Part shown: in pieces, positions 412 to 63,201 of the stretch
Position numbering within the stretch: position 1 is the first letter of the stretch
How the letters are laid out: every line of letters begins with the position of its first letter
Source: Hymenobacter oligotrophus
Lineage (GTDB): Bacteria; Bacteroidota; Bacteroidia; Cytophagales; Hymenobacteraceae
NCBI RefSeq assembly: GCF_003574965.1
Contig: NZ_CP032317.1
Location: 1,984,001 to 2,048,000 of the forward strand
Length of the DNA: 64,000 nt
Reading direction: 5' to 3'
Made by a program: the position numbers and the translations under genes
Notes under the pieces: generated by a model
The model's input: only the letters and a program-made list of their open reading frames with translations
Database searches by the model: none
Told to the model about the DNA's origin: nothing

Positions 412-452
412 CCTAAGAACAATGCAGCCATCAGCGCGGCAGCCGGCCCTAG

Positions 453-714
453 GTGCGCGTGGGTGCCAGCCTGCCGGCAGCCGAGCAAGACGGCACAGCG
501 TCTCTGCGCGTGCAGGATATTGACATTGGTATTCCGGAAGAGCTGCAGGAGCGGGTTTTTGATAAGTTTGGCGGCCCGGCCCGGGGTTGCCGGTATGGTC
601 AGCACCGGCCTAAGTTTGTTTGTCACGAAGCAGATCGAGCAACTGCACCAAGGCAAAATTCGCCCGAAAAGTATCGGGGGCGCTGGCACCTGCTTGGTGG
701 TAGGGCTGCCATAG
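453..714 (+). pseudogene. decayed C-terminal fragment of a sensor histidine kinase
   Basis: Two frames must be joined to recover a HATPase_c domain. The first frame reads a relic of the N/G1 box (DIDIGIPEELQERVFDKF). After a frameshift near 570-580 the other frame reads the G2 box region (STGLSLFVTKQIEQLHQGKI) and ends with the usual terminal Leu-Pro before a TAG at 712-714. The GLGL motif is degraded to GLSL. No dimerisation domain or sensory part remains upstream, and the intergenic space to the PAS gene holds nothing else recognisable. This is a non-functional remnant. Confidence 0.7.
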
Positions 715-817
715 GCCCTGGCCTGCTTGGCCCAGATCTCACCTAGGGAATGGTGAACAACCAACGCCAAAATTTCCCGAACTTTAAGTGCCTTTTCCCG
801 CCATTTGGCACTCTTCC

Positions 818-2008
818 ATGAAAAAAGCTTTATTCTCCTTGGCGCTGGCCATGCTGGTGCCGGTGTTGTCGCCCGGCTGGGGCTTTTTTGGTCACCGCAC
901 CATCACGCAGATAGCCGTGTACACGCTGCCCTCGAGCATGCAGGGCTTCTACTACCGCCACATGCCGCAGCTGGTGAAGCTGAGCACCGCCCCCGATGAG
1001 CGCCGCAACGACGACCCCACCGAGGCTACCAAACACTTCATCGACATGGACCACTTCGGCGACAACCCCTTTGGGATGATGCCGAAAGACTACGACAAGG
1101 CCGTAGCCAAGTACACCGCCGATACGCTGAAGAAATACGGTGTGGTGCCGTGGGTGGTGCTCGAAACCAAGGAAAAGCTCACCGAAGCCTTTAAGCAGCG
1201 CGATACCACCGCCATAATTGCCCTGTCGGCCGATTTGAACCACTACGTGGCCGATGCCTTTGTGCCGCTGCACACCACCGAGAACTACGACGGCCAGCTG
1301 ACCAAGCAACACGGCCTGCACTCGCTGTGGGAGTCGAAGCTGCCCGAAATGTTTATTGCCGATTACAAACTCGACTCGGAGAAAGCCGATTACCTAAAAG
1401 ACCCGAAGTCGGCCATCTGGAGAGTGGTGCAGGATTCGTACGGGTTCTTGGGTGCCACCTTCGACTACGAGATGGAGTTGAGCAAAAACTTCCCCACCGA
1501 GAAGAAGTATACCTACTCGCACAAATACGGAAAAACCCGCCGCTCCTACTCCGATGCGTTTGCCAAGGAGTACCACAAGAAAGTGGGCGGCATGGTGGCT
1601 TACCGCCTGAAAGGCGCACCCACCATGGTAGCCTCGATGTGGTACACGGCCTGGAAAGATGCCGGCAGCCCCGACCTAGGCGCCATGATGCGCCCCGGCA
1701 AGCTTAGCAAGGAAGAAAAGAAAGTGCTCGACGAGCAACTCGAAGCCTGGAAGGACAACCAACTGGTGCCCCTGAACATGCTGCTTTCGTTGCAGAAGGA
1801 GAAGTCGGAGGAAAAGCCCGACGTGGTGGGCTCGGCCGATGGCGCCGCCCCCGCGCCGGCCCCCGAAGCAGCAGCGCCCGCCGCTGCCCCCGCAGCTGCC
1901 CCCGAGGCCGACAAAGTAAAGACCAAGGAGAAGCGCGACAACGACAAGCAGAAAGAGAAAACCAAGGCCAAGAAGAAGGACGACAACAGCCCCTTCAACG
2001 ACAAGTGA
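818..2008 (+). CDS. secreted zinc-dependent phospholipase C / S1-P1 nuclease-like protein
   Basis: 396 residues. Of two in-frame starts, the ATG at 818 is chosen because it gives a clean signal peptide (residues 1-20) followed by Trp21, matching the N-terminal tryptophan that binds zinc in this fold. Further candidate zinc ligands are His26, Asp77/His79, His142, Asp146, His152 and His165/168, spaced as in the zinc PLC/S1-P1 superfamily. Residues from about 325 form a low-complexity tail, first Ala/Pro-rich, then Lys/Asp/Glu-rich, outside the catalytic domain. Likely exported hydrolase of phosphodiester substrates; nuclease versus lipase cannot be decided. A strong hairpin terminator follows at 2048-2082. 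Confidence 0.75.
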   Translation: MKKALFSLALAMLVPVLSPGWGFFGHRTITQIAVYTLPSSMQGFYYRHMPQLVKLSTAPDERRNDDPTEATKHFIDMDHFGDNPFGMMPKDYDKAVAKYTADTLKKYGVVPWVVLETKEKLTEAFKQRDTTAIIALSADLNHYVADAFVPLHTTENYDGQLTKQHGLHSLWESKLPEMFIADYKLDSEKADYLKDPKSAIWRVVQDSYGFLGATFDYEMELSKNFPTEKKYTYSHKYGKTRRSYSDAFAKEYHKKVGGMVAYRLKGAPTMVASMWYTAWKDAGSPDLGAMMRPGKLSKEEKKVLDEQLEAWKDNQLVPLNMLLSLQKEKSEEKPDVVGSADGAAPAPAPEAAAPAAAPAAAPEADKVKTKEKRDNDKQKEKTKAKKKDDNSPFNDK

Positions 2009-2047
2009 GCTGCTCAGCACCGGCCCGCTTACCCCGGCATTTCTTTC

Positions 2048-2082
2048 ACAAAAACGCCCCTGCCCCGCAGGGGCGTTTTTGT
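2048..2082 (+). terminator. rho-independent terminator
   Basis: 16-bp stem around gcccctgc / gcaggggc with a 3-base loop, A-rich 5' side and a T run on the 3' side. It ends the gene at 818-2008. Confidence 0.85.
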
Positions 2083-2176
2083 TTACTCAACCATAACTAC
2101 CTAGTAGCCTATTCGTTAACCATGCTTCGGCCTATCACTGGCGCCGCGTTATACCCTCACCCAATCCTGTAAAGCT

Positions 2177-3103: not shown

Positions 3104-3136
3104 CCCCCGGACCTGCCCTAGGTTCGGGGGATTTTT
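3104..3136 (+). terminator. rho-independent terminator with CCTAGG in the loop
   Basis: 10-bp stem cccccggacc / ggttcggggg with one G-U pair, then a T run. The dispersed CCTAGG motif overlaps its loop and 3' arm. It ends just before the cyclophilin start at 3146. Confidence 0.7.
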
Positions 3137-3145: not shown

Positions 3146-3916
3146 ATGACCACCGTTCTTGCCCGCCTCTGCCCCACCCTTGCCCAGGCTGCCCTAGGTG
3201 CCGCCGTGCTTTTGGTAGCTGCTTGCAACCAGCAGCAGCCCGCTCAGGAACAAGCCGCTGCCACCTCGGCCGATGGCTCGAACCGGCCCGGCCCGGACCT
3301 GACCAAGATCAACGACCAGAACGTGGTGGAAATCCTGACGAAGTACGGCCAGGAGCATCCGCAAACCGAGGTACTGATCAAAACGGACATGGGCCCGGTG
3401 AAGGTGCGCTTGTTTAAGGACACGCCGCTGCACCGCGCCAACTTTTTGCTGCTAGCCAACAAGGGCTACCTCGATCAGACGGTGTTCTACCGCATCGAGA
3501 AGGGCTTTGTGGTGCAGGGCGGCAATTCAGATAAGCGCACCATAAGCCTGGGCAAGTACCATCTGCCTCCCGAAATCAAGCCCGAGTACTTCCACCGCCG
3601 CGGCGCCGTGGGCATGGCCCGCTACGACGACGAGAAGAACCCCGGCCGCCTCTCTTCCTCGCACGACTTTTACTTCACGGTAGGCAAGCCCATGAAAGCT
3701 TTCCAGGCACAAGGCGTAGCCGGCCGCAAGCTCACGCCCGAGCAGGTAAAAGCGTACACCACCGAAGGCGGCGTACCCGCTCTCGATGGCCAATACACCG
3801 TGTTTGGCGAAGTAGTAGAAGGCATGGACGTGGTCGAGAAAATCAACCAAGTACCCGTTGATGCTTACAACTGGCCGCTCAAGGACGTAGGCATGAAGGT
3901 TGAAATCCTGAAATAG
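3146..3916 (+). CDS. lipoprotein peptidyl-prolyl cis-trans isomerase (cyclophilin type)
   Basis: 256 residues. Residues 1-26 form a lipoprotein signal with lipobox VAAC and lipidated Cys27, then a Gln/Ala-rich spacer. The cyclophilin domain spans about 75-255, with TDMGPVKVRLF, the core FYRIEKGFVVQGGN (catalytic Arg in FYRI) and later DFYFTVG. Expected to catalyse proline isomerisation during folding of envelope proteins while anchored to a membrane. A variant loop (RRGAVGMARYDDEKNP) replaces the strict bacterial form but keeps GAVGMAR. Convergent with the lipoprotein gene at 3932. Confidence 0.88.
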   Translation: MTTVLARLCPTLAQAALGAAVLLVAACNQQQPAQEQAAATSADGSNRPGPDLTKINDQNVVEILTKYGQEHPQTEVLIKTDMGPVKVRLFKDTPLHRANFLLLANKGYLDQTVFYRIEKGFVVQGGNSDKRTISLGKYHLPPEIKPEYFHRRGAVGMARYDDEKNPGRLSSSHDFYFTVGKPMKAFQAQGVAGRKLTPEQVKAYTTEGGVPALDGQYTVFGEVVEGMDVVEKINQVPVDAYNWPLKDVGMKVEILK

Positions 3917-3931: not shown

Positions 3932-4372
3932 CTACTGGCCCCGCCGAATCTGCACCAGCTTGGAGTGTTGCGGATCGATGGGGTCTTCTTTTTGAAAATC
4001 AACCAACTCCTGGCGGGTGTAAGTGCGCACGGCTTGGGGCGCAAACACCTCCATGCCGCTTATATCGGCGGTGGCGCTGGCGGCCGGCTGCCGGGCCGGA
4101 TTGGTAAGAATACTGTCGCCGCTTACGCGAAAAATGCGGTAGAAGTAAAACCGTTCCTGCGCGCCACCTTTTGGGAAAAAGCGCACTACCAGCACGTCGC
4201 CAACTTGCGGGTTGCTGAGGTATTCGGCGGTGCGGTCGGTGGGGGTTGGCGCAGGCGCCGTGGCTGGTGTGGCCGGCGCCGTACTGGCGGCATCCGGCTT
4301 ACGCGCATCCTTGCGCTGGCAGGCACTCAGGAGCAACAACACACCTAGGGCGGCGGAAAGAAACTTGTTCAT
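3932..4372 (-). CDS. small lipoprotein of unknown function
   Basis: 146 residues. The ATG at 4372 is preferred over one seven codons upstream because it gives a standard lipoprotein signal (MNKFLSAALGVLLLLSAC, lipidated Cys18). A Thr/Pro/Ala linker follows, then a compact domain beginning YLSNPQVGDVLVVRF and containing FYFYRIFRVSGDSIL. No family recognised. It stands alone, tail-to-tail with the cyclophilin gene 15 bp away. Confidence 0.7.
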   Translation of the reverse strand: MNKFLSAALGVLLLLSACQRKDARKPDAASTAPATPATAPAPTPTDRTAEYLSNPQVGDVLVVRFFPKGGAQERFYFYRIFRVSGDSILTNPARQPAASATADISGMEVFAPQAVRTYTRQELVDFQKEDPIDPQHSKLVQIRRGQ

Positions 4373-4457
4373 GCAACGAGGGTTAGCAAACATGCGGCCG
4401 TAGGTACCTAGGGCAACCGATGGCTATACGGCGAGCCGCAAAGTTGCAGCAAAGAAA

Positions 4458-4511: not shown

Positions 4512-6632
4512 TTACCAAATTTTGGCACGCTCGGTTTTGGCGCGCACCATTTTCGCATCCTCTTTGCAACCGAAGGCCTCAAAGAACTGCGGCATGTTCA
4601 TCAACGGGCCGTTGGTGCGGAACTGCGCCGGCGAGTGCGGGTCGGTGAGTACTTGCTGACGCAGAAACTCCGGACGCGCGTTGGTACGCCAGATTTGCGC
4701 CCAGGCGAGGAAGAAGCGCTGGTCGGGCGTGAGGCCGTCGTACTTAGGCACGTTGCCGTTGGGGTACTGCTTCTTCAGCTGCTTTTGCAGCGCCGAGTGG
4801 GCAATGCTCAGGCCTCCTAGGTCGGCGAGGTTTTCGCCCATGGTCAGCTTGCCGTTCACGTACACCGAGTCGAGCGGCTGGAAGGCCGAGTACTGCTTGC
4901 CTACTACGGCAGCGCGGGCCTCAAACTTCTCGGCGTCTTCCTTGGTCCACCAGTCCTTCAGGTTGCCTTCGGCATCGTACTGGCGGCCCTGGTCGTCGAA
5001 GCCGTGGGTGATTTCGTGGCCGATTACCGCGCCCATGCCGCCGTAGTTAACGGCGTCGTCAGCCTTCGGATCGAAGAACGGCGGCTGCATGATGCCGGCC
5101 GGGAACACAATCTCGTTCATCGACGGATTGTAGTAGGCGTTTACCGTGGGCGGCGTCATGCCCCACTCCTTGCGGTCGATGGGTTTGCCAAACTTGCTGG
5201 CCATGTCGCGGTAAGCCCACTCGCGCGAAGCCAGCACGTTTTTCAGGTACGACTCGCGCGAGATGTTCAGCGCCGAGTAGTCCTTCCACTGGTCGGGGTA
5301 GCCGATTTTCACCGTGAAGGCGTTGAGCTTCTTCATGGCTTCCTTCTTGGTGGCGTCGCTCATCCAGTCGTTGCGCTGAATGTGCTCACCCATGGCCTCC
5401 TTGATGTTGCTGACCATCTCCATGGCCTTAGCTTTTGCCTCGGGGGTGAAGGCCTTATCAACATACAGCTGGCCGAACGCCTCGCCCAGGGCACCATCCG
5501 TAGCGCGGATCATGCGCTTCCAGCGGGGCTGCTGCTTTTTAGCGCCCGTGAGTACCTGCTGGAAACGGAACGACTCGTCGTTGAACGCTTGCGGCAGCGC
5601 CGACGGCACCGACGACACCAGGTGCCAGCGCAGGTAGGTTTTCCAGTCGTTTAGCGGCTCGGCCTTCATGGCGTTGCTAGCTTCCTGGAAGAACGCCGGC
5701 TGACCCACAATCACTTCTTTGGCCGAACCTAGGCCCAGCTGCGGCAGCATGGCCGAAAGCCCTAGGTTGGGGAAGCGCTTGTTGGCTTCGGCCACCGTCA
5801 TTTTGTTGTAGTTGGCGTACGGGTCGCGCAAATCCACGCGGCTCTTCGAGGCCTTGGCCAGGCGCGTTTCGAGGCGCATTACCGTTTCGGCGTTTTTCTT
5901 GGCCGTGGCCTCGTTGTCGCCGAGCAGCTTAAAGGTGTTGGTCAGGTACGTCATGTACGCCGCCCGAATGCCCTTCGAGCGCGCATCCTCCTTCAGGTAG
6001 TAGTCGCGGTCGGGCAGGCTCAGGCCACCTTGGTACAGGTTTACGGCGTACTGCGAGCTGATTTTGTCGTCCTGCCCAACGTAGGTGTTGAACAGGGCGC
6101 CGGTTTGCAGCATTTGGGCGCGCACCAGCTGGCTTTGCAGGCTCTTCAGGTCCTTGGCAGCGCTGATGCGGGCCAGCTCGGGCTGCAGGTACTTGAGGCC
6201 AGCCGCTTCAATAGCAGCCGTGTCCATGGCCGAGGCGTAGTAGTCGCCTACCTTCTGGGCGTTGGTGCCTTTGGCGGCGTTTTTGTTGGCGGCGGCTTCG
6301 TCCAGAATTTGCCGCATCACGGCGTTGTTCTTGTCGGCCAGCTCGTTAAATGAGCCCCAGCGTACCTCGGCGGCCGGAATGGGGTTGTTTTTGTACCAGT
6401 TGCCCGAGGCGTACTGGTTGAAATCGTCGCACGGCGCTACCGACTTATCAAGGTTGGCCACGTTCAGGCCCACGCCAGCGGGGTACGATTCGGCAGCCGG
6501 GGCTGCGGTTGTGGTGCTTGCCGTCGTCTGCGTGGTGGTGGTGGTGGCGGTTTTGGAGCTCGATGCACAGCCCCACAGCGCTAAGGCGCCCCAGGCAGCC
6601 ACCACGATCGACACGCGGTTGCGGTTTTTCAT
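4512..6632 (-). CDS. M13-family (neprilysin/PepO-like) zinc metalloendopeptidase, lipoprotein
   Basis: 706 residues from the ATG at 6632, which opens a lipoprotein signal (MKNRNRVSIV..., lipobox LWGC, Cys22) followed by a Thr-rich linker. The open frame continues upstream to 7034, but that stretch runs through the divergent alkyltransferase-like gene. The M13 N-terminal lobe (CDDFNQYASGNWYKNNPIP) starts near residue 60. The zinc site HEITH is near residue 538 with the third ligand in ENLADLGG near 598, and the protein ends in the family's aromatic tail (KIW). It should cleave oligopeptides in the envelope. Confidence 0.92.
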   Translation of the reverse strand: MKNRNRVSIVVAAWGALALWGCASSSKTATTTTTQTTASTTTAAPAAESYPAGVGLNVANLDKSVAPCDDFNQYASGNWYKNNPIPAAEVRWGSFNELADKNNAVMRQILDEAAANKNAAKGTNAQKVGDYYASAMDTAAIEAAGLKYLQPELARISAAKDLKSLQSQLVRAQMLQTGALFNTYVGQDDKISSQYAVNLYQGGLSLPDRDYYLKEDARSKGIRAAYMTYLTNTFKLLGDNEATAKKNAETVMRLETRLAKASKSRVDLRDPYANYNKMTVAEANKRFPNLGLSAMLPQLGLGSAKEVIVGQPAFFQEASNAMKAEPLNDWKTYLRWHLVSSVPSALPQAFNDESFRFQQVLTGAKKQQPRWKRMIRATDGALGEAFGQLYVDKAFTPEAKAKAMEMVSNIKEAMGEHIQRNDWMSDATKKEAMKKLNAFTVKIGYPDQWKDYSALNISRESYLKNVLASREWAYRDMASKFGKPIDRKEWGMTPPTVNAYYNPSMNEIVFPAGIMQPPFFDPKADDAVNYGGMGAVIGHEITHGFDDQGRQYDAEGNLKDWWTKEDAEKFEARAAVVGKQYSAFQPLDSVYVNGKLTMGENLADLGGLSIAHSALQKQLKKQYPNGNVPKYDGLTPDQRFFLAWAQIWRTNARPEFLRQQVLTDPHSPAQFRTNGPLMNMPQFFEAFGCKEDAKMVRAKTERAKIW

Positions 6633-6773
6633 ACGAAACGATAGGTGAGGGTGAGATTTGGCTTGTAAGGTAAACAGATGGCTGCATTTATCCCGGCTCT
6701 GTTTCCGCCAACACCCCCGCTGCTCCTCGCCCCGATTCGGCCACGGCTTCCTAGGGCACGTATCTTCGGGCTG
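6633..6773. promoter_or_regulatory. divergent promoter region
   Basis: 141 bp between the divergent M13 peptidase and alkyltransferase-like genes must carry promoters in both directions. No convincing -33/-7 pair could be assigned by eye. Confidence 0.3.
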
Positions 6774-7130
6774 ATGAAGGAGCTCAACGAACGTTACCGC
6801 AATTTCTTTCAGGATGTGTACGAGGTAGTACGCCAAATCCCACCGGGGCGCGTTTCTACCTACGGCGCCATTGCACACTACCTGGGCAGCAAGCAGGGTG
6901 CCCGCACGGTAGGCTGGGCCATGCAAGCGGCGCACGCCCTGCGCGGCGATGATTACGTGCCCTGCCACCGCGTTATCAACCGCTTGGGCGTGCTCACGGG
7001 CAAGCAATTTTTCGGCTCGCCCACGGCCATGCAAGAGGCCTTGGAGGCTGAAGGCGTGCCCGTTGTCGAAGACAAAGTACCCGATTTTCCGCAGCGCTTC
7101 TGGGACCCCAGCACCGAGCTTCAGCCCTAG
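6774..7130 (+). CDS. MGMT-family alkyltransferase-like protein
   Basis: 118 residues from the ATG at 6774; upstream in-frame starts would add a non-conserved Pro-rich leader. It is the DNA-binding/active-site half of O6-alkylguanine-DNA alkyltransferase: VRQIPPGRVSTYGAIA is the helix-turn-helix lead and PCHRVI carries Cys64. The short length without the Ada N-terminal domain fits the alkyltransferase-like (ATL) group that flags alkyl lesions for excision repair. Most ATLs replace this Cys with Trp; here it is retained, so real transferase activity is possible. Confidence 0.85.
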   Translation: MKELNERYRNFFQDVYEVVRQIPPGRVSTYGAIAHYLGSKQGARTVGWAMQAAHALRGDDYVPCHRVINRLGVLTGKQFFGSPTAMQEALEAEGVPVVEDKVPDFPQRFWDPSTELQP

Positions 7131-7145
7131 GTGGCGCAGCCGCGC

Positions 7146-9060: not shown

Positions 9061-9191
9061 CCGCAACGAGCAACTGCCCAGCGTGTGGTTTGGCGGATTA
9101 AAATTACTAATATCCACTTGAACTCTTGCTGCCCAATGGCAGATTATTGGGCTGCCACTACCTTAAAATAAAGCAATTAGCCAACCGCGGC

Positions 9192-9884
9192 CTAGGTGCT
9201 TACCGCGCGGTGCGAAAGCGTTTTGGGCTGGGGGCGGCCGTCGCGCCACAAGGCAAGCGTCATCAGCACCAAGCCTATAAGGTAGGTGCCGTCGATGATC
9301 ATGCCCATCCAAAGATTGGCAAAGCCCTTTTCTTTTTTCATCAGGTAGCTGGTGACGGAGCCGGCGTAATAAATGGCCTGCGCCACGCTCACCACAAACA
9401 TAAAGTCGTACCAGGGGTTGAGGGCGCGCAACTGCAGCAGCCACTGCTCGAAGTAAAGCAGCACGAGGGCAAGCATAAGCATTACCTGCAAGGCGCGGGC
9501 GTATACATTGGGCCGATGAATGCCCGACCACCAGAAGGCGTCGGCTAGGCACACCAGCGTAAACACCACCCCCACCACCGGCAGCCAGCGCTTTACCCAA
9601 GGTTGGCGCAGCGCGTGGTAGTAGGCCCAGCCCAGCAGCCAGGTTTCGACGAGCACCGTGACGTGGAACAGGTACATGTTGGTGTGCAGCACCTTGCGGC
9701 TCCACATATCCACAAAGGCATCGGCGCTCCAGAACGCGAAGTACCCCACCACGATGCGGGCCGGTTTTGAAAGGCTACGCCAACGCCACAGTCCCAGCAC
9801 GGTGGGCACGAGCACGCCAAACATGGATGCACGGTTAAGGACCCTGCTCAGGACTTCGAGCCACTCGGGAATGGGCGTTGGCAT
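9192..9884 (-). CDS. seven-helix integral membrane protein of unknown function
   Basis: 230 residues with seven predicted transmembrane helices (about 18-33, 42-58, 68-90, 101-118, 131-150, 158-178, 190-212) and a short basic cytoplasmic tail. Aromatic-rich helices (for example FAFWSADAFVDMW) are notable. No transporter or enzyme motif recognised. The gene lies 16 bp downstream of the stop of the 9901-10212 gene on the same strand, so the two probably form an operon. Confidence 0.7.
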   Translation of the reverse strand: MPTPIPEWLEVLSRVLNRASMFGVLVPTVLGLWRWRSLSKPARIVVGYFAFWSADAFVDMWSRKVLHTNMYLFHVTVLVETWLLGWAYYHALRQPWVKRWLPVVGVVFTLVCLADAFWWSGIHRPNVYARALQVMLMLALVLLYFEQWLLQLRALNPWYDFMFVVSVAQAIYYAGSVTSYLMKKEKGFANLWMGMIIDGTYLIGLVLMTLALWRDGRPQPKTLSHRAVST

Positions 9885-53611: not shown

Positions 53612-54421
53612 ATGCATCCGCCGCTCATCCAAACCCCGCTCACCGTTACCGACCAGATGAACCGGCGCGTGGTGGTGCCTTACCCGCCGCAGCGCATCGT
53701 GTCGTTGGTGCCTTCGCAAACGGAGCTGCTGTTCGACCTAGGGCTGGGCGAGCGAGTGGTGGGGGTCACGAAGTTTTGCATTCACCCGCAGGAGGCGCGG
53801 CAGCAGGCCCAGGTAATTGGCGGCACCAAGAACTTCCACTTCGATAAAATAGCCGCGCTCAAGCCCGACCTCATCATCGGCAACAAGGAGGAGAACTACC
53901 AAGAGGGCATCGAACAGCTGGCGGCTGAGTACCCCGTGTGGATGAGCGACATCTTCACCCTAGGTGATTCGCTGCGGATGATGAGGCAGGTGGGGCTGAT
54001 TACTGGCACGCAAGCCCGCGCCGAACGCTTGGCCAGCGAAATTGCCAACAGCCTGCTGGCTTTGCCAAGTGCTGCCGAACCGCTTACGGCCGCTTACTTT
54101 ATTTGGCGCAAGCCCTACATGGCCGCCGCCGCGGGCACTTTCATCGACGATATGCTTCCCCGTGCGGGCTTCCGCAACGTGTTTGGGGCCCTAGGTCGTT
54201 ATCCCGAAATCAGCGCCGAGCAGCTGGCCGCGGCCGCGCCGCAAGTCATATTGCTGTCGTCGGAGCCGTATCCCTTTCAGGACAAGCACGTGGCGGAGTT
54301 CCAAGCTATTTGCCCCAGCGCCCAAGTGCTGGTAGTAGATGGCGAGTTGTTTAGCTGGTACGGCAGCCGGCTGCGGCACACCGCGGCGTATTTTCAGCAG
54401 TTACAAAGCGAAGTAGCATGA
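53612..54421 (+). CDS. BtuF-like (helical-backbone) metal/cobalamin receptor without a signal peptide
   Basis: 269 residues. Periplasmic binding-protein domain of the cobalamin/haem/siderophore class: PQRIVSLVPSQTELLFDLGL, VVGVTKFCIHP, GGTKNFHFDKIAALKPDLII and the second lobe PRAGFRNVFGALGRYPEISA. Unlike secreted BtuF, it starts MHPPLIQTPLTVTDQM with no hydrophobic signal, and no ABC transporter genes are adjacent. The start was checked: no in-frame upstream start adds a signal peptide. It may act in the cytoplasm, or be exported by another route. Confidence 0.85.
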   Translation: MHPPLIQTPLTVTDQMNRRVVVPYPPQRIVSLVPSQTELLFDLGLGERVVGVTKFCIHPQEARQQAQVIGGTKNFHFDKIAALKPDLIIGNKEENYQEGIEQLAAEYPVWMSDIFTLGDSLRMMRQVGLITGTQARAERLASEIANSLLALPSAAEPLTAAYFIWRKPYMAAAAGTFIDDMLPRAGFRNVFGALGRYPEISAEQLAAAAPQVILLSSEPYPFQDKHVAEFQAICPSAQVLVVDGELFSWYGSRLRHTAAYFQQLQSEVA

Positions 54422-54529: not shown

Positions 54530-55774
54530 CTACATCTTAAACCCGGCTTGGCGTAGCTCCTCCCAGAAGAACGGGTACGATTTGCGCACCACGGCCGGGG
54601 TTTCCACATCTATTTTGCCGCGCAGCGCCAACGGCGCGAAGGCCATGGCCATGCGGTGGTCGTGGTATGTGGCAACGGATTGGCCGTTTACGTGCAGCTG
54701 CGGCGCCGATACCCGAAACATGTCGCGCTCTTCGGCCGTGAGCGATGCGCCGAACTTACCGAGCTCGTTCTGCAGGGCCGCAATGCGGTCGGTTTCTTTG
54801 ATGCGCAAGCTTTCGAGGCCTACCATGTCAACGGTTACGCCGGTGGCAGCAGCCGTAACGGCAATGGTTTGGGCCAGGTCGGGGCAGTCGGTGAAGTTCA
54901 TGGCCACGTGGCCGGCGCGCTCCTTGGCCGGTGCCTGCCTAAGAATGACGCCATCGGCCACGAACTCGGTGTGCACGCCCAGCGGGTCCATCAGGTACAT
55001 AATGGCTTGGTCGCCTTGCCAGGATTGGCGGCGTAAACCGGGCAGGTGTATTTGCGACCCCGCCGGACCTAGGGCCACCATGGCGTACCAATAGCTGGCC
55101 GCCGACCAATCAGCCTCAATGGTATAATCGGCGGGTTTATAGGGCTTGGGGGCCACGCGCACGTCCCGGTCGCGCACCTCTACCTGCGCGCCAAAGTGGC
55201 GCATCAGGCTGGCCGTCATGGTGATGTAAGGGCGCGAACCAATGTGCCCCGTCAGCTGCAGGTTGAGGCCGCCCGGAATAAGCGGCCCTACCATCATGAG
55301 GGCCGAAATAAACTGGCTGCTGATGTCGCCGCGCACGGCTAGCGTAGTTGCCGCGCCGGGCTCGAAGCCGTTGAGCTGCAGCGGTGGGTAGCCTTCGCGC
55401 CCTAGGTACCCGATGTTGGCCCCAAGCTTGCGCAGGGCATCAACCAACACGCCAATGGGCCGCTCCAGCATGCGGGCGGTGCCGGTAAGCGTAGTACGAC
55501 GCCCCGTAACAGCCAGGTACGCGGTCAGGAAGCGCATCACCGTGCCGGCATCTTCGGCATCGAACACCTCGGCCTCGGGGTGCGCCAGCAGGCGGCGCAT
55601 CAGTTGGGTGTCGTTGGCTTCGGAAAGGTGCGTGAGGGTGCCGCCACCGGCCAAGGCTTGCAGGATAAGGGCGCGGTTGCTTTCGCTTTTGGAGGCGGGC
55701 AACATGGCCGTGCCGCGCAGCGGGCCACCGGGCCAGCGCAACGACAGCGTATCGGGAAAAGTTGGTTGGTGCAT
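54530..55774 (-). CDS. aroA: 3-phosphoshikimate 1-carboxyvinyltransferase (EPSP synthase)
   Basis: 414 residues, slightly short for the family. PASKSESNRALILQAL is the shikimate-phosphate motif, EDAGTVMRFLTAY matches the PEP-site region (where E. coli has the LGNAGTA motif), and the second half has GDISSQFISALMM, DWSAASYWYA and the C-terminal DHRMAMAFAPLAL. Sixth step of the shikimate pathway. On the same strand and 77 bp downstream of aroB; the third shikimate gene (58931-60013) lies further upstream on this strand. Confidence 0.95.
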   Translation of the reverse strand: MHQPTFPDTLSLRWPGGPLRGTAMLPASKSESNRALILQALAGGGTLTHLSEANDTQLMRRLLAHPEAEVFDAEDAGTVMRFLTAYLAVTGRRTTLTGTARMLERPIGVLVDALRKLGANIGYLGREGYPPLQLNGFEPGAATTLAVRGDISSQFISALMMVGPLIPGGLNLQLTGHIGSRPYITMTASLMRHFGAQVEVRDRDVRVAPKPYKPADYTIEADWSAASYWYAMVALGPAGSQIHLPGLRRQSWQGDQAIMYLMDPLGVHTEFVADGVILRQAPAKERAGHVAMNFTDCPDLAQTIAVTAAATGVTVDMVGLESLRIKETDRIAALQNELGKFGASLTAEERDMFRVSAPQLHVNGQSVATYHDHRMAMAFAPLALRGKIDVETPAVVRKSYPFFWEELRQAGFKM

Positions 55775-55851
55775 TAGCAGAGGAGCGCCCGAAGGTAGCG
55801 CCCTAGGTTAAACTTACAGGCTAGCCGCGCGGGAGGCGGCGGTGGGCCCGG

Positions 55852-56892
55852 TTACAGCCGGTGGTAGTAGCGCAGCGAATCGGCAATTTCGGCTACGCTC
55901 ACGGGCTGGTCGTACACGCCGCGGCCGATGCCCTCGAGCAACGTGCAGTTGATGGTGCTGCCCTGGTTTTTCTTGTCTTGCAGGGCCAGCTCGGCAATGG
56001 CTTGGGTTTCGAGCGTTACGAACTGCACTTTTTCGAATACCGAGAACAGGAACGTTCCGATCTGGTTTAGCTCGCGCTCCGATAGCAGGCCTTTTTGCAC
56101 CGACAGCCAGCTTTCGCAGATGATGCCCGCGGCTACCGCCTCGCCGTGCAAAATGCTGCGGCCGGCTTGGCTTAGCAAGTAGCTCTCGAGCGCGTGGCCC
56201 ACGGTGTGGCCGAAATTCAGGAGCTTGCGCGGGCCTTTCTCGGTGGGGTCTTGCGCCACAATGTGCTGCTTTATCCGCACCGATTCGCGCACCACGGGCG
56301 TCCAGTCTTCCACAAACAAGCCTTGGTGGCGCTGCTCAGCAAAGGCGTCGGCATCGGCAATCAGCCAGTGTTTTACCACCTCGGCGTAGCCGGCGCGCAG
56401 CTCGCGCGGGTCGAGGGTGCTTAGGAACGCGGTGTCGATGCACACGGCCTCGGGCAGCTGAAACACGCCCAGGTGGTTTTTGTAGCCCATAAAGTCGACG
56501 CCGGTTTTGCCGCCGATGGCCGCATCTACCTGCGCCAGCAACGTGGTAGGCACCACCGCGCAGCGCATGCCCCGCTTGTAAAGGGCCGCGCAAAAGCTGC
56601 CTAGGTCGGAGATGACGCCGCCGCCCAAGCACACCAGCACGCTATGCCGATCGAAGCGGTGTTCCGTCAGTTCGCTCCACACCCGCTCGCTGGTGGCCAG
56701 GGTTTTGTGCTCCTCGCCGGCGGGCACCTCAATCAGCAGGTGCGCTTCGGGCAAGTGGGGCTTGAGGGCGTGGTAACACAGGCGGGCGGTGTTGGTATCG
56801 GCCAGCACGGCCACGCGCGTGGTGCCGGGGCGGCTAAGCAGGGCCGCCAACGCCGGCAGCGCCTCGGGGCCGATGTGGATTGCGTCAGTCAT
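55852..56892 (-). CDS. aroB: 3-dehydroquinate synthase
   Basis: 346 residues. NAD-binding part (EVPAGEEHKTLATSERVWS and CLGGGVISDLGSF), then the metal and substrate site: AQVDAAIGGKTGVDFMGYKN, EVVKHWLIAD (Glu ligand), NFGHTVGHALES (His) and HGEAVAAGI (His). Converts DAHP to 3-dehydroquinate. Likely co-transcribed with aroA. Confidence 0.95.
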   Translation of the reverse strand: MTDAIHIGPEALPALAALLSRPGTTRVAVLADTNTARLCYHALKPHLPEAHLLIEVPAGEEHKTLATSERVWSELTEHRFDRHSVLVCLGGGVISDLGSFCAALYKRGMRCAVVPTTLLAQVDAAIGGKTGVDFMGYKNHLGVFQLPEAVCIDTAFLSTLDPRELRAGYAEVVKHWLIADADAFAEQRHQGLFVEDWTPVVRESVRIKQHIVAQDPTEKGPRKLLNFGHTVGHALESYLLSQAGRSILHGEAVAAGIICESWLSVQKGLLSERELNQIGTFLFSVFEKVQFVTLETQAIAELALQDKKNQGSTINCTLLEGIGRGVYDQPVSVAEIADSLRYYHRL

Positions 56893-57492: not shown

Positions 57493-57562
57493 CCAGGCCT
57501 TGCTGCTGCGTGCAACCTTTCGCACCTAGGGCGGCATCATGTGGTAGCAAACCTACCGAACC

Positions 57563-57970: not shown

Positions 57971-58412
57971 CCCCACCGCCTTGCCCAAGCTCGCCCACTC
58001 GCTGCTGCTTGCCTCGGGCCTGCTGGCCCTAGGTGCTTGCAACCATTTGCATTCCATCGACGCCGAAACCGCCCAACCCACCTCGCTGATTGGGCGGTGG
58101 CAGCCAGTCGGCGTGAAGGGCGGCATGGTGCCCAACCCCACGGTACCGCCCGAAGAACTGCGCATTGCCCCCGACAGCACCGTGCGCCTGTACCACGCCG
58201 ATGCGCTGAAGCAAGAGTTTCGCCTGCGGCCCACCACCGGCAACTTCTGCACCCAGCTCGAGCCCGTACAGCTGGTGCGCTTCGACGAAGGCACCAAAGC
58301 CGGCATTACTTACGCCTACCAGATCAAAGGCGACGAGCTGACGCTGGACGGCAACATTTGCCTGGACGGCGTGATCCGGCGCTACCGCTGGGTTTCAGCC
58401 AACGCCAACTAA
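57960..58412 (+). CDS. lipocalin-like lipoprotein, second of three
   Basis: 150 residues from the ATG at 57960. Lipobox LALGAC with Cys27. Mature start LIGRWQPVGVKGGMVPNPTV parallels the first and third members (LxGRW/LxGSW), ending CLDGVIRRYRWVSANAN. Two cysteines in the mature domain could form a disulfide. Tandem duplication with strong divergence is likely. Confidence 0.72.
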   Translation: MNANPTALPKLAHSLLLASGLLALGACNHLHSIDAETAQPTSLIGRWQPVGVKGGMVPNPTVPPEELRIAPDSTVRLYHADALKQEFRLRPTTGNFCTQLEPVQLVRFDEGTKAGITYAYQIKGDELTLDGNICLDGVIRRYRWVSANAN

Positions 58413-58948: not shown

Positions 58949-60013
58949 TATTTCGGTTTGCTTCCGGATGCTCTCGATGTGAATAAGCTTGTAGAGCTCG
59001 GCCACAAACTTGTCGTTCACGTTCAGGCGGGCAGCCCATTCGGGGCGGCTTTGGTAAATTTCGTTCCAGCGGTCGAGCTGCAGAATCTTGACGTTGTTCT
59101 GCTTTTTGTACTCGGCCAGTTCCTCCACCAAAGCCATGCGGCGCGCCAGGGCCTCGATAATTTCCTGGTCGGCCACGTCCATTTTATGGCGCAACTCCTC
59201 GGCCTTGTTCAGGTAGTCGAGGTTTTCGGTGGAGCGGTAACGGTGCTTTAGCTCGTGCAGCATTTCGGCCAGCCTGAAGGGCGTTACCTGCTGCTCGGCG
59301 TCGCTCCAGGCATTTTCGGGGTCGGGGTGCGTTTCCAGCATCAGGCCGTCGTAGTCCAGGTCGAGGGCCTTTTGCGCTACGGGGAGCAACAAATCGCGCC
59401 GGCCGCTGATGTGGCTGGGGTCGCAGATGAGCGGCAGCTCCGGAAAGCGCGTTTTCAGCTCAATTGGAATGGCCCAGGTAGGCGCGTTGCGGTATTTGCT
59501 GGGCGCGCCCGTGCTAAACCCGCGGTGAATGGCCGCTAAATCGCGCACGCCGGCGCGGTCGAGGCGCTCCAGGGCACCAGCCCACAAAGCCAGGTCGGGG
59601 TTCACGGGGTTCTTCACCATCACGGGCACGCCGGTGCCACCTAGGGCTTCGGCTAGCTCCTGCACGGCAAAGGGGTTTACGGTGGTGCGGGCCCCAATCC
59701 ATACCACATCCACGCCGTGCGCAAGGCATTCTTCCACGTGGCGCGGCGTGGCCACTTCCACGGTTACGGCCAGGCCGGCTTCCTGCTTCACGCGCTGCAA
59801 CCACTTTAGGCCCACCGCGCCAATGCCCTCGAACGAGCCAGGCCGGGTGCGCGGCTTCCAGATACCGGCCCTGAATAAATCGACGCCCAACCCCTGCAGG
59901 CCGCGGGCGGTGGCCATTACTTGCTCTTCGGTTTCGGCCGAGCAAGGGCCGGCCAGCAGCAGCGGCTGCCCTTTGCGGGCCAGCAACCGGGTAAAATACG
60001 TGTCGAGTTCCAT
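58931..60013 (-). CDS. bifunctional DAHP synthase / chorismate mutase
   Basis: 360 residues from the ATG at 60013. N-terminal KDO8P-like (type I-beta) DAHP synthase (about 1-265): LLAGPCSAETEEQVMATARG, FRAGIWKPRTRPGSFEGIG, the metal-binding CDPSHISGRRDLL and METHPDPENAWSDAEQQ. C-terminal AroQ-type chorismate mutase (about 275-360): DVADQEIIEALARRMALVEE and EYKKQNNVKILQLDRW. In relatives the mutase domain gives feedback control of the synthase by prephenate or chorismate. First and key regulated step of the pathway that aroB and aroA continue. Confidence 0.94.
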   Translation of the reverse strand: MELDTYFTRLLARKGQPLLLAGPCSAETEEQVMATARGLQGLGVDLFRAGIWKPRTRPGSFEGIGAVGLKWLQRVKQEAGLAVTVEVATPRHVEECLAHGVDVVWIGARTTVNPFAVQELAEALGGTGVPVMVKNPVNPDLALWAGALERLDRAGVRDLAAIHRGFSTGAPSKYRNAPTWAIPIELKTRFPELPLICDPSHISGRRDLLLPVAQKALDLDYDGLMLETHPDPENAWSDAEQQVTPFRLAEMLHELKHRYRSTENLDYLNKAEELRHKMDVADQEIIEALARRMALVEELAEYKKQNNVKILQLDRWNEIYQSRPEWAARLNVNDKFVAELYKLIHIESIRKQTEILQRPE

Positions 60014-60169
60014 GGCTGAGGGCGGCGTGCGGGCCGTGCTCCAGCTTGCCGGAACCGCCGTTGCCACCTAGGGGTTTTAAGCACGCCACCGGCATGCTGG
60101 CTTATGATAACAGCGCCGCCCAAAACGATGTTTCGTGGCTATCTTCGCAGCCCAAAGCTACCACCCCGC

Positions 60170-61369
60170 ATGCCCGAGCCCCAAACCCACCCAAGCGTTT
60201 CCTTCGATAATACCGCCGTAGCCTTCGCCTCCAAGTCGGATGGCGAGCTAAAGCAGATGTACGCCCTGTTTGCTGCCATGAACAACAAGGGCCTTGTCGA
60301 CCTAGGCGGCGGCATGATGAAGCGGGCCCTGAGCTGGGGCTTGCCGGGCAGCAAAACCATCATCAAGCACACCATCTTCAAGCAGTTTTGCGGCGGCGAA
60401 ACCATTGCTGAGTGCAAGCCGGTAATTGCCGAGCTGGGCAAGTTCAACATCGGCACCATCCTCGATTACTCCGTGGAGGGCGAAGGCAACGAGCACAGCT
60501 TCGACCACACCCGCGACGAGCTGCTGAAAACCATCGACCTGGCAGCCGGGCACCCGCACATTCCGTTTTCGGTGTTTAAGGTAACGGGCGTGGCCGATAG
60601 CGCGCTGCTCGAAAAGGTGCAAGCCAAGCAGCCGCTCACGCCTGCCGAGCAGCAGTCTTACGACCGCGCCATGCAGCGCATTGATGCCCTGTGCCGCCGC
60701 GCCCACGAGAAAACCGTGCGCATTTTCATCGACGCCGAGGAAAGCTGGTTTCAGGATACCATCGACGACATAGCCCGCGACATGATGCGCCGCTACAACC
60801 AGGAGCGCGCCATTGTGTGGAATACTTACCAGCTCTACCGCCACGACCGCCTCGACGCTCTGAAGGCCGACCACGACCACGCCGTGCGGGAGGGTTACTA
60901 CCTGGGCGCCAAGCTGGTACGCGGGGCCTACATGGAAAAGGAAGGCCGCGTGGCGCAGCAGCGCGGCTACCGCAACCCCATCAACCCGACCAAGCAAGCC
61001 ACCGACGAGCTGTACGACGAGACGCTGCGCTTTTCCATCGACCACATCGAGCGCATGGCCATTTGCGCTGGCACGCACAACGAGGCCTCCTCGCGCTTGC
61101 TCACCGAGCTATTGGCCGAAGCCGGCCTGGCCCCCAACGACGAGCGCGTGTGGTTTGCCCAGCTCTACGGCATGAGCGACAACCTGAGCTACAACCTCGC
61201 CCACGCCGGCTACAACACGGCCAAGTACGTGCCCTACGGCCCCGTAGAAGCCGTGATGCCCTACCTGCTGCGCCGCGCCGACGAAAACACCGCCATTGCC
61301 GGCCAAAGCAGCCGCGAGTTTCTGTTAATCAAGCGCGAAATGGAGCGCCGCCGAAACAAAGTGCGCTAG
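60170..61369 (+). CDS. proline dehydrogenase (monofunctional)
   Basis: 399 residues from the ATG at 60170. FAD-dependent TIM barrel: TILDYSVEGEGNEHSFDHTR, VFKVTGVADSALLEKVQAKQ, the catalytic block KLVRGAYMEKEGR, and the C-terminal GTHNEASSRLL and YGPVEAVMPYLLRRADENTA with the RRADEN signature. Oxidises proline to pyrroline-5-carboxylate at the membrane. The partner P5C dehydrogenase is not adjacent. Confidence 0.93.
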   Translation: MPEPQTHPSVSFDNTAVAFASKSDGELKQMYALFAAMNNKGLVDLGGGMMKRALSWGLPGSKTIIKHTIFKQFCGGETIAECKPVIAELGKFNIGTILDYSVEGEGNEHSFDHTRDELLKTIDLAAGHPHIPFSVFKVTGVADSALLEKVQAKQPLTPAEQQSYDRAMQRIDALCRRAHEKTVRIFIDAEESWFQDTIDDIARDMMRRYNQERAIVWNTYQLYRHDRLDALKADHDHAVREGYYLGAKLVRGAYMEKEGRVAQQRGYRNPINPTKQATDELYDETLRFSIDHIERMAICAGTHNEASSRLLTELLAEAGLAPNDERVWFAQLYGMSDNLSYNLAHAGYNTAKYVPYGPVEAVMPYLLRRADENTAIAGQSSREFLLIKREMERRRNKVR

Positions 61370-61437: not shown

Positions 61438-61479
61438 GGTATTTTCCCCTCGCCTTCTCTCCTACATCTTAGCAGCAAC

Positions 61480-61848
61480 ATGATTACACGCGTACGCCGC
61501 TTTCTTATCCAATACTCGCGCCACCAAACCGGTACGGCCAGCTACCTCACGGTAGTGCAGGAAGCGGAGCTAGGGCTGAACCTCGATATCTCGCACGAAA
61601 AAGCCCGCCTGAACGAAATCCTGGCCGAAATATCGGAAACCGAATACACCGCCGGCCGCCCCGTGCTGAGCTGCCTGGTAAAGGTGGAGGGCTCCAAAGG
61701 CCAGGGCGATAATTTTTACAAGCTGTGCGAGCGGCTGGGCATGGGGCCGTGGCGCGAGCTGAAGCAAAACCCCGATTTCCTGCAGGAATTGCGCACTACC
61801 TGCCGCGATTTTTGGCGCAACGACGACAATTTTGCTCAGTTCGGTTAG
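61480..61848 (+). CDS. hypothetical protein (122 residues)
   Basis: From the ATG at 61480. No signal peptide. The central region reads RLNEILAEISETEYTAGRPV then SCLVKVEGSKGQGDNFYKLC, with conserved-looking Trp and Cys residues near the end (WRELKQNPDFLQELRTTCRD). Not recognised; possibly a conserved domain of restricted distribution. Single-gene unit. Confidence 0.65.
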   Translation: MITRVRRFLIQYSRHQTGTASYLTVVQEAELGLNLDISHEKARLNEILAEISETEYTAGRPVLSCLVKVEGSKGQGDNFYKLCERLGMGPWRELKQNPDFLQELRTTCRDFWRNDDNFAQFG

Positions 61849-62016
61849 CCCTTTGGGGTGAGGCATTTGGATGCTCGACAGTTTTATTTGGATACCGTCG
61901 TGTAACCTCAAGTGGATAGGCCGCGTTAAGGAAGCCATCGAGTCTGTTATGTGGCTAACCGCAACAGGCCTTGGTGAATTTCCCTTCCTTTTTCACCCAA
62001 CCACAACCTCACCACA

Positions 62017-62988
62017 ATGAACACCGACAATAATTCGAACCTGGGCAACACGCCCGGCACCGGCTCTTCTACCAATCCTGCCAACCAAGGTACCGGCGCT
62101 GGCGCCGGCTACGGCAGCACTCAGCATTCGGGCAGCGGCTCGATGGGCTCTTCGGGCCTGAACTCTAGCAGCAACATCTCGAACGCCTCGAACACCGGCT
62201 CGGGCACCGACCAGAGCACCGGCGCCAACTACAACTCGGGCTCGTCGATGGGCAACAGCAACATGGGCTCGTCGTCGTCGTACAGCACTCCGCAAAACAG
62301 CGGCATTGACCCCGACCAGAAACACCACGATTACAGCGCCACCGAGAAAGGCGGCGCAATGGCTGGCGGCCTAGGTGCTGCCGTAGGTCGCGGCGTTGAT
62401 GCCGTGCAAAACACCGCCGGCGATGCTGCCCGTGCCGTAACCGGCAACGACAGCACCTACGGCTCGAGCAACCAGTCGGGCCGCATCCTGACCTCGACGT
62501 TCCGCGACCGTGAATCGGCTGAGCGTGCTTACAGCTCGCTTTCGTCGCGCGGTTACACCAAAGACGACGTGAACCTGATGATGTCGGACGAAACGCGCAA
62601 GACGCACTTCGGCGACCACACCCCCGACTCTGAGCTGGGCAACAAAGCCATGGAAGGCGCAGGCGTAGGTTCGGCCATCGGCGGTACTGCCGGTGCCGTA
62701 ATCGGCGCTATCGCAGCCATCGGTACTTCGGTAGCACTGCCGGGCTTGGGCCTGGTAATTGCCGGCCCGCTGGCCGCAGCACTGGCCGGCGCCGGCGCCG
62801 GTGGCCTCACGGGTGGCCTGGTAGGCGCCCTGGTAGGCTCGGGCATTCCGGAGGAGCGCGCTGCCGAGTACGAGCACGACATTAAGAACGGCGGCATCGT
62901 AATGGGTGTGCGTCCGCGCAACGACGAAGACGCCCGTCACTTCCAAGATGAGTTCCGCCGCCACAACGGCGACCGTATCTACTACTAG
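62017..62988 (+). CDS. glycine-zipper stress protein with disordered N-terminus
   Basis: 323 residues. Residues 1-100 are a Ser/Gly/Asn/Thr low-complexity stretch. Residues about 155-195 (LTSTFRDRESAERAYSSLSS then RGYTKDDVNLMMSDETR) match the general-stress 17M/YflT-type domain. Residues about 210-290 form a Gly/Ala zipper membrane hairpin (GAVIGAIAAIGTSVALPGLG). The C-terminus is YEHDIKNGGIVMGVRPRN. Probably a general-stress membrane-associated protein; monocistronic with a strong terminator. Confidence 0.75.
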   Translation: MNTDNNSNLGNTPGTGSSTNPANQGTGAGAGYGSTQHSGSGSMGSSGLNSSSNISNASNTGSGTDQSTGANYNSGSSMGNSNMGSSSSYSTPQNSGIDPDQKHHDYSATEKGGAMAGGLGAAVGRGVDAVQNTAGDAARAVTGNDSTYGSSNQSGRILTSTFRDRESAERAYSSLSSRGYTKDDVNLMMSDETRKTHFGDHTPDSELGNKAMEGAGVGSAIGGTAGAVIGAIAAIGTSVALPGLGLVIAGPLAAALAGAGAGGLTGGLVGALVGSGIPEERAAEYEHDIKNGGIVMGVRPRNDEDARHFQDEFRRHNGDRIYY

Positions 62989-63011
62989 TCGATAACTTAA
63001 GTCGGCTTGCC

Positions 63012-63045
63012 AAAAGACCCTCCCGCAACCGGGGGGGTCTTTTTT
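63012..63045 (+). terminator. rho-independent terminator
   Basis: Stem aaaagaccctcccg / gggggggtctttt with a short loop and T run after the stress protein gene. Confidence 0.85.
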
Positions 63046-63201
63046 GTTACTATGATAGCGGGCCACGCCCGGCACCTAGGGCCGTATTTGGCACTATTGT
63101 GTAGCTGGCCTCGTTAGCAATGCAGAATGGGCGCGGTTTTCGCCATACCATTCGGTGCGGCTTTACGTACATTTAAGACCACTTTTTTCGCGCTTTTGCC
63201 C

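Follow-up and report, generated by a model that had tools for sequence, protein, structure and literature searches.

The hexanucleotide CCTAGG is over-represented throughout the genome of Hymenobacter oligotrophus (G000; 4,188,814 bp in 4 contigs), as confirmed by analysis of a 64-kb window of its chromosome (the whole stretch studied, G000:C1:1984001-2048000) and of the remaining genome. The iterated unit is the asymmetric word ACCTAGGV. Its copies are spread evenly over the chromosome and their loss is suppressed, and related species carry the same word, another word or none. We tentatively propose an element resembling the highly iterated palindrome HIP1 of cyanobacteria and the DNA uptake sequences (DUS) of Neisseriaceae and Pasteurellaceae, which would be kept by a putative self-DNA recognition or exchange drive with lineage-switching specificity.

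A first reading of the window, made from its letters without database searches (the sequence-only reading), had estimated about 88 CCTAGG in 64 kb and about 50 copies of one octamer in either orientation. The exact counts are 88 and 50 (26 CCCTAGGT and 24 ACCTAGGG), and CTAG occurs 132 times. That reading had named two outcomes that would undo the observation, a codon-preserving shuffle that reproduces the counts and absence of the excess from the rest of the genome; neither was found, and the observation therefore stands. In 500 within-gene synonymous shuffles, based on genes called by our own open-reading-frame heuristic without annotation, coding CCTAGG has a mean of 6.2 and a maximum of 13, compared to 57 observed, and the coding octamer a mean of 0.48 and a maximum of 3, compared to 30. 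The whole genome contains 5,678 CCTAGG (about 1.4 per kb) against 67 of the reversed-word control, with 0.8-1.9 per kb in each of 21 sampled chromosome regions. With about 0.5 Mb of G000 and 20 shuffles, the coding excess of CCTAGG is 9.5-fold over the codon shuffle and the non-coding excess 8.8-fold over a first-order Markov null; for ACCTAGG the same comparisons give 17-fold and 25-fold. Over a second-order Markov model, ACCTAGG is in 15.6-fold excess (464 kb of G000).

The sequence-only reading had also noted that coding copies are read C-CTA-GGN, which holds for 54 of 57 in the window and would be the natural argument for codon usage, or chance, as the source of the word. This frame is largely forced, however, because a TAG stop falls in one of the other frames and AGG is required in another. 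Of the Leu codons between xxC and GGx in the window, 61% are CTA, as against 3-5% elsewhere. Codon usage or chance is refuted by the shuffle, by the excess in non-coding DNA and by the absence of the word from five of seven genus mates. Non-coding copies are indeed denser, as had been claimed (3.39 versus 1.04 per kb), but the fold of CCTAGG over the null is alike in both kinds of DNA, so that the higher density mostly reflects constraint rather than preference.

The anatomy of the word was examined on the 625 CCTAGG found in the window and in 20 chromosome samples of 20 kb, together 464 kb. The flanking pairs are A..G in 300, A..C in 217, A..A in 45, C..C in 26 and G..C in 18; the rarer pairs are A..T (8), C..G (5), G..A (4) and C..A (2). 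If the flanks were independent, the symmetric forms ACCTAGGT (A..T) and CCCTAGGG (C..G) would be expected 134 and 46 times, respectively. Beyond ACCTAGGV, any preference hardly extends past one further base per side, namely a preceding C and, in the G form, a following C. The description of the element as a palindrome thus does not hold for G000, where it is asymmetric with one A flank and the flanks are not free.

The distribution among relatives is close to all-or-none. Counts of ACCTAGG in genus and family are for both strands, the symmetric ACCTAGGT thus being counted on both. Among eight genomes of the genus, three are high (5,341 in G000, 5,823 in G004 and 5,096 in G007) and five are low (76, 35, 70, 93 and 84). 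The five low mates together show 1 ACCTAGG (strand count) in 200 kb, compared to 10.6 expected from a Markov model; 40-kb samples from them yield no other octamer of comparable excess. Within the family, 8 of 204 genomes have more than 5,000 copies (G000, G004, G007, G030, G036, G088, G104 and G123, hereafter the high genomes), and the remaining 196 have 666 or fewer. In an order-wide sample of 390 genomes, partly the same family genomes, none outside the family exceeds 864. The highest of these, G244 and G343 from another family of the order, have 864 and 736 copies (both strands) in 3.4-4.0 Mb, possibly owing to another related word. The three plasmid-size contigs of G000 nearly lack the word, with 1 copy in 43 kb sampled as against about 58 at the density of the whole genome. 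Pieces of 40 kb from three named Hymenobacter plasmids, whose host chromosomes lie outside the comparison, contain 7, 1 and 4 CCTAGG and no GGGGCCCC. Among 80 loci from a scan of genome contigs, none has more than 6 CCTAGG, and no genus mate appears by name among the loci shown.

Other relatives iterate other words, which we refer to as dialects. The large sister genus comprises 120 genomes, of which 52 were sampled with 15-40 kb each (5 further regions below 4 kb were left out). Here the strong word is ACCTAGGT with ACCTAGCT/AGCTAGCT in G030, G036 and G123; CCTAGG with loose flanks in G104 and G088; CCCTAGGG in G072; CTAGGCCA in G041, G137 and G043; and GGGGCCCC in G095, G028 and G035. A CTACCC-type word, weaker and less certain, is seen in G019, G044, G075, G096, G106, G034 and G053. 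The remaining 33 of 52 samples show no word of this kind. It should be mentioned that single samples can miss, since one of these 33, the 20-kb sample of G065, has no strong word although its genome has 3,248 GGGGCCCC. On pooled samples, six dialect words are 5- to 35-fold over the codon shuffle in coding DNA (20 shuffles) and 5- to 110-fold over the non-coding null, some of these from small counts. Genome-wide counts of GGGGCCCC in the 204 family genomes are bimodal, with 2,173 in G028, 4,075 in G035, 3,248 in G065, 4,775 in G066, 3,985 in G095 and 1,301 in G111, and at most 139 in the other 198. The control CCCCGGGG reaches 407-792 in these six genomes and at most 203 elsewhere; it was rejected as a separate excess, since part of it overlaps GGGGCCCC (4 of the 9 sites seen in four samples). 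That no genome belongs to both the ACCTAGG and the GGGGCCCC set is uninformative (P 0.78). GGGGCCCC and CCCTAGGG are sequences crystallized in the A form, and a speculative reading based on A-DNA was considered.

In a tree of one protein, ClpB, from 20 genomes, the three ACCTAGGS genomes (G000, G004 and G007) form a clade (99/99) among word-less genus mates. G104 and G088 group together (97/94) and then with G072 (100/100), and G041 pairs with G137 (98/95); the tree does not resolve the ACCTAGGT trio or certain further forks. Three of the four dialects with at least two rows are therefore supported clades, and the dialects mostly follow the phylogeny of this protein.

Some further words were seen in the same samples. 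In G096 (L191), GTGGATAA has 16 strand counts in 20 kb where 0.2 are expected, a second odd word beside CTACCCC that may be a local repeat. A 20-kb sample of G067 (L284) shows a strong excess of TATTACAA/CTATTACA, which may likewise be a local repeat. The reversed control GGATCCA occurs 0-4 times per strand in many genomes of the large genus and 20 to about 110 times in others; its near-absence is a possible pattern of restriction-site avoidance.

Turnover of the copies was followed in aligned DNA that is 88% identical, with the copies of G000 as reference. ACCTAGG is intact at 67 of 101 sites in G007 and 79 of 111 in G004, whereas all 7-mers are intact at 50% and 49%; in the low mates G005 and G002, 0 of 46 and 0 of 52 are intact. 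Matching by codon gives a sharper contrast: a Leu CTA codon in the motif context stays CTA in 50 of 71 cases (G007) and 57 of 68 (G004), compared to 16 of 118 and 34 of 128 outside that context. In three-way alignments, 11 of 77 turnover cases are single-step gains, which fall at four positions, start from several precursors and include both transitions and transversions. No single-mismatch neighbour of the word is depleted in step with the excess (464 kb). The suppressed loss and the varied gains indicate that ordinary mutation supplies the copies, which are thereafter shielded from loss.

These data bear directly on pure mutation bias or single-base, Vsr-like repair as the maker of the word. 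Such a process would fit the similar fold in coding and non-coding DNA. One that merely manufactures the word is contradicted, however, since CTA is lost less often in the motif than outside it; the spread of gains over several positions and bases and the undepleted neighbours also count against it. Very-short-patch repair by Vsr/Dcm can skew the counts of CTAG-type words, and a C5 methyltransferase is the usual partner of Vsr. The C5 family PF00145, found in 83 of 204 genomes, is present among the eight high genomes only in G007 and G030, so that six, including G000 and G004, have no match; Vsr itself was not searched. We consider this explanation very improbable, and the suggestion that the word is the product of biased repair falls with it, in its purely mutational or single-base form.

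Both orientations occur in all 21 regions, and neither prevails consistently along the chromosome (whose origin and terminus were not mapped), which speaks against a replichore signal. The spacing is near-exponential (coefficient of variation 0.97, n=604), with a slight evenness (variance/mean 0.82 across 252 windows of 2 kb). Per kb, there are 2.84 copies in tandem gaps, 2.56 in convergent and 2.59 in divergent ones; within the tandem gaps, 67 lie closer to the end of the upstream gene and 45 closer to the next start. A regulatory role was rejected on these similar densities. They also speak against the claim that non-coding copies as a rule sit in terminator loops, as does the number of stems of at least 8 around the motif, 11 of 625 compared to about 7.4 at random positions. 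Inverted close pairs are not in excess and hairpins only slightly so, and a terminator or inverted-pair role was rejected as well. Genes with a third-position GC content (GC3) below 0.65 have 0.71 copies per kb, versus 1.15 at GC3 of at least 0.75.

The copies in the window are as follows, each with the coordinates of its hexamer and the octamer around it; the strand is the one that reads ACCTAGGV, and copies with no A flank or with an A flank on both sides are unstranded.
448-63080, unstranded, whole dispersed CCTAGG set, 88 copies
448-453, minus, ACCTAGGG
742-747, plus, ACCTAGGG
1675-1680, plus, ACCTAGGC
3117-3122, minus, ACCTAGGG
3193-3198, minus, ACCTAGGG
4344-4349, plus, ACCTAGGG
4407-4412, plus, ACCTAGGG
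4816-4821, minus, ACCTAGGA
5728-5733, plus, ACCTAGGC
5761-5766, minus, ACCTAGGG
6750-6755, unstranded, TCCTAGGG
7126-7131, minus, ACCTAGGG
9191-9196, minus, ACCTAGGC
10385-10390, minus, ACCTAGGG
10421-10426, plus, ACCTAGGG
10455-10460, plus, ACCTAGGC
10878-10883, minus, ACCTAGGC
11046-11051, minus, ACCTAGGG
11244-11249, plus, ACCTAGGC
12632-12637, plus, ACCTAGGC
13037-13042, minus, ACCTAGGG
14208-14213, minus, ACCTAGGC
16019-16024, minus, ACCTAGGG
16574-16579, minus, ACCTAGGG
17579-17584, plus, ACCTAGGG
18654-18659, minus, ACCTAGGC
19056-19061, minus, ACCTAGGC
19438-19443, plus, ACCTAGGG
19708-19713, minus, ACCTAGGG
20832-20837, minus, ACCTAGGG
21130-21135, plus, ACCTAGGG
22051-22056, minus, ACCTAGGC
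22405-22410, minus, ACCTAGGG
22672-22677, minus, ACCTAGGC
23181-23186, plus, ACCTAGGC
24131-24136, minus, ACCTAGGG
25493-25498, plus, ACCTAGGG
26057-26062, unstranded, CCCTAGGA
26609-26614, minus, ACCTAGGG
26636-26641, plus, ACCTAGGG
27452-27457, plus, ACCTAGGG
27957-27962, minus, ACCTAGGC
28700-28705, plus, ACCTAGGG
29966-29971, minus, ACCTAGGG
30443-30448, unstranded, CCCTAGGC
31591-31596, unstranded, ACCTAGGT, in a hairpin loop
31728-31733, plus, ACCTAGGG
32297-32302, plus, ACCTAGGC
32795-32800, unstranded, CCCTAGGC
33050-33055, plus, ACCTAGGG
33102-33107, unstranded, GCCTAGGG, in a hairpin with a 15-bp stem
33145-33150, plus, ACCTAGGC
36051-36056, plus, ACCTAGGG
37435-37440, minus, ACCTAGGG
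38224-38229, minus, ACCTAGGG
39329-39334, plus, ACCTAGGC
39668-39673, minus, ACCTAGGG
40190-40195, plus, ACCTAGGC
42107-42112, plus, ACCTAGGA
42328-42333, plus, ACCTAGGG
42379-42384, plus, ACCTAGGG
42952-42957, plus, ACCTAGGG
43162-43167, minus, ACCTAGGG
45627-45632, minus, ACCTAGGA
45924-45929, minus, ACCTAGGC; ACCTAGG also in the 5 other high genomes aligned, not in the 5 low mates
46515-46520, plus, ACCTAGGA
48537-48542, plus, ACCTAGGC
49619-49624, minus, ACCTAGGG
50245-50250, minus, ACCTAGGA
50389-50394, plus, ACCTAGGG
50878-50883, plus, ACCTAGGC
51088-51093, minus, ACCTAGGC
51610-51615, minus, ACCTAGGC
53540-53545, minus, ACCTAGGA
53737-53742, plus, ACCTAGGG
53959-53964, minus, ACCTAGGG
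54190-54195, minus, ACCTAGGG
55068-55073, plus, ACCTAGGG
55401-55406, minus, ACCTAGGG
55802-55807, minus, ACCTAGGG
56600-56605, minus, ACCTAGGC
57525-57530, plus, ACCTAGGG
58028-58033, minus, ACCTAGGG
59640-59645, plus, ACCTAGGG
60067-60072, plus, ACCTAGGG
60301-60306, plus, ACCTAGGC
62370-62375, minus, ACCTAGGC
63075-63080, plus, ACCTAGGG

The two motif-poor gaps singled out earlier are unremarkable when taken one at a time, since 87 exponential gaps with a mean of 720 should include about 1.5 of at least 2.9 kb. A low-GC3 cluster on the minus strand (46596-50106), encoding a glycosyltransferase, a methyltransferase, a WbqC-like protein and a DegT/DnrJ aminotransferase, has few copies and probably consists of acquired surface-sugar genes. 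The minus-strand gene at 33146-35173 encodes a protein with repeated PAS domains, including five PAS_3 stretches, for which Pfam shows PAS families only.

A methyltransferase is one candidate for a driver. In methylation-linked mismatch repair of the HIP type, which is Elhai's model for cyanobacteria, an enzyme would mark the word and repair would be biased toward mutations that create it. The high genomes look like those with cyanobacterial HIPs as the available part of that work describes them (short GC-rich words, about 0.5-2.5 per kb, with sporadic alternatives; PMC4390886). PF02384 has a match in seven of the eight and PF07669 one above the cut-off in six (22 and 21 of 27 genomes overall, respectively), these being matches and not established orthologues. 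However, both are also common in word-less genomes, and none of the families tested (four Pfam families and an MmeI-like protein; PF02086, EcoRI-type and MT-A70 enzymes not searched) is common to all eight. PF00145 is present in two, a full MmeI-like gene in four, and PF01555 in three (G004, G007 and G088, but not G000, G030, G036, G104 or G123; 23 genomes searched). PF07669 is missing from G000 and G004; for PF02384, the absence is that of G004, a genome given as 99% complete. The clade of G000, G004 and G007 has most of its aligned motif sites in common, so that one enzyme would be expected in all three, yet the sole match of G004 in the methyltransferase searches is one PF01555 protein, from a family absent from G000. 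The role of methylation target proposed by the sequence-only reading is thereby weakened, not excluded, and we regard methylation-linked repair as unlikely.

Within the window lies a gene (19398-22958, minus strand) for an MmeI-like type IIL restriction-modification enzyme of 1186 aa; it is full-length and uninterrupted and has nuclease and methylase motifs. MmeI enzymes recognize asymmetric sites, so that this protein could be thought to recognize and drive the word. The comparison between G000 and G007 speaks against it: the two genomes have the same word, but the target-recognition domains are only 52% identical, compared to 96% over residues 1-560, which suggests, from the alignment, that specificity domains have been swapped. 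Among the high genomes, the full gene is found in G000, G007, G123 and G088. There is no match in G004 or G036, only weak 29-38% matches in G030 and a 64-residue fragment in G104, and the word-less G002 and G003 carry the full gene. Fragments and stopped copies are frequent (45 genomes searched). The enzyme is therefore refuted as a general driver, and that it drives the word here is scarcely credible. No driver gene was found in the families searched.

A binding site for a lineage-restricted chromosome-organizing or segregation protein, kept by weak direct selection, would agree with the similar fold in coding and non-coding DNA and with the slightly even spacing. A site for protein binding or self-recognition stays a candidate among the roles first suggested. 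No candidate protein was found, and the copies follow no pattern of position or orientation along the chromosome. Each site would have to confer a benefit for selection to act on more than 5,000 of them together, and gain, loss and word change across several lineages are uncommon for proteins of this kind. We judge a role of this type improbable, to about the same degree as methylation-linked repair.

A Chi-like recombination signal, or a self-marker for a helicase-nuclease or defence nuclease, shares with the word its shortness, asymmetry, over-representation and variation between lineages. Chi is typically co-oriented with replication, whereas ACCTAGGV shows no such trend in the 21 regions (again with origin and terminus unmapped) and is absent in sister species. 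Palindromic dialects, and lineages with no comparable word in the samples, also argue against it, and we hold this explanation to be quite remote.

Among known systems, the word works most like either of two. The likeness to HIP1 drawn by the sequence-only reading is apt. As far as the accessible part of Elhai 2015 (PMC4390886) shows, HIP1 and the alternative HIPs (GCGATCGC, GGCGCC, rCCGGy) are, like ACCTAGGV, short, GC-rich and dispersed at about one per kb, have no repeat unit and are replaced by other words in some relatives. Sporadic alternatives are also found here (GGGGCCCC in 6 and ACCTAGG in 8 of 204 genomes, others in the 15-40 kb samples). The same part reports that cyanobacteria with over-represented words have at least one methyltransferase able to methylate them, and that some have HIP1 but no CGATCG enzyme (PMC4390886). 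In Hymenobacteraceae, in contrast, no tested methyltransferase family is common to all carriers, and the word of G000 is asymmetric, palindromic words being found in relatives such as G030 (ACCTAGGT) and G072 (CCCTAGGG). The earlier interpretation is partly supported: it keeps its HIP1 likeness, whereas its palindrome and its terminator loops find no support in G000.

The likeness to DUS lies in an asymmetric word present in thousands of copies with no chromosomal orientation trend, denser in non-coding DNA, with dialects that mostly follow clades. The density in G000 (5,678 in 4.19 Mb) and the dialects resemble those of Neisseriaceae DUS in the part of PMC3630211 available. The differences are that no type IV pilus ATPase is found in the 27 genomes tested, that several dialects are palindromic and that GGGGCCCC is unrelated in sequence. 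We therefore file the word as a HIP/DUS-like element belonging to neither class, because one defining feature of each fails in our tests (palindromy in G000 and pilus machinery, respectively).

We favour an exchange drive over methylation-linked repair and over a chromosomal binding protein, while holding it as tentative. Copies would be created at random by point mutation, and a genome-wide process would favour keeping the stretches that had become the word, about 10- to 25-fold at equilibrium in coding and non-coding DNA alike. DNA bearing the word may be recognized preferentially as self; homologous recombination between cells would then exchange it or use it for repair, and alleles with the word would spread. 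The putative recognizing protein would have shifted its specificity in some lineages, giving the dialects, and would be missing or inactive in most. What the data show is the excess of the word, its asymmetry and even spread, its suppressed loss and its change among relatives; from this pattern we infer such a DUS-like drive and a recognizer with changeable specificity. The scarcity of the word on plasmid-size contigs and in low-GC3 genes, the lack of a consistent strand trend, the near-exponential spacing, the similar gap densities, the single-step gains from several precursors and dialects that mostly follow clades also speak for the drive. Hymenobacteraceae may possess a so far undescribed system that recognizes self DNA without type IV pili or a shared methyltransferase, switches its word between lineages (ACCTAGGV, ACCTAGGT, CCCTAGGG, CTAGGCCA or GGGGCCCC) and drives thousands of copies of the current one through the chromosome, so marking the DNA of kin; this, too, we hold as a tentative possibility.

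Several observations weigh against this exchange drive. Within genes there is an orientation bias (235 antisense, 173 sense and 55 unoriented). The unmatched conservation of the word is modest, 231 of 1,135 other 7-mers being better kept in G007 and 85 of 1,344 in G004. The common codon CTG outside the context is kept as well as CTA in the motif (917 of 1,132, 81%, in G007 and 906 of 1,267, 72%, in G004), so that the rare codon inside the motif is kept about as well as the preferred one. GGGGCCCC has no core in common with ACCTAGG, and ACCTAGGT, CCCTAGGG and GGGGCCCC are palindromic, while DUS are described as not palindromic in the section of PMC1939737 available. The type II/IV secretion-pilus ATPase family PF00437 was found in 0 of 27 genomes, carriers or not, with 14 of 14 controls matched, 13 of them over the cut-off; the classical type IV pilus route is unavailable to the proposed recognition process. 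No receptor or competence gene could be tied to the trait, competence genes such as ComEC not having been searched. It is noted that natural transformation is reported in Riemerella, a genus of Bacteroidota, in the accessible text of PMC7965970.

In a search mainly of openly accessible literature, no publication with both CCTAGG and Hymenobacter was found. No description of such a phenomenon in Bacteroidota was found either, judged by titles and the starts of abstracts, with few subscription papers or preprints covered. The part of PMC5217627 available has nothing bearing on an iterated word, and that of PMC1939737 lists GCCTAGGC as under-represented in E. coli.

The origin and upkeep of highly iterated bacterial words such as HIP1 are a long-standing open question. 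Related species of Hymenobacteraceae either carry a word or lack it, and the word itself varies, so that a comparison of the 204 genomes offers a way to look for the gene responsible. The word also biases codon choice (CTA before GGN) and would mislead composition-based tools. An iterated word with this all-or-none and word-switching distribution points to a candidate system that recognizes the cell's own DNA. To our knowledge, from a search that was not exhaustive, no sequence-based barrier to gene exchange is known in the phylum Bacteroidota; if the word marks self DNA, it would be such a barrier.

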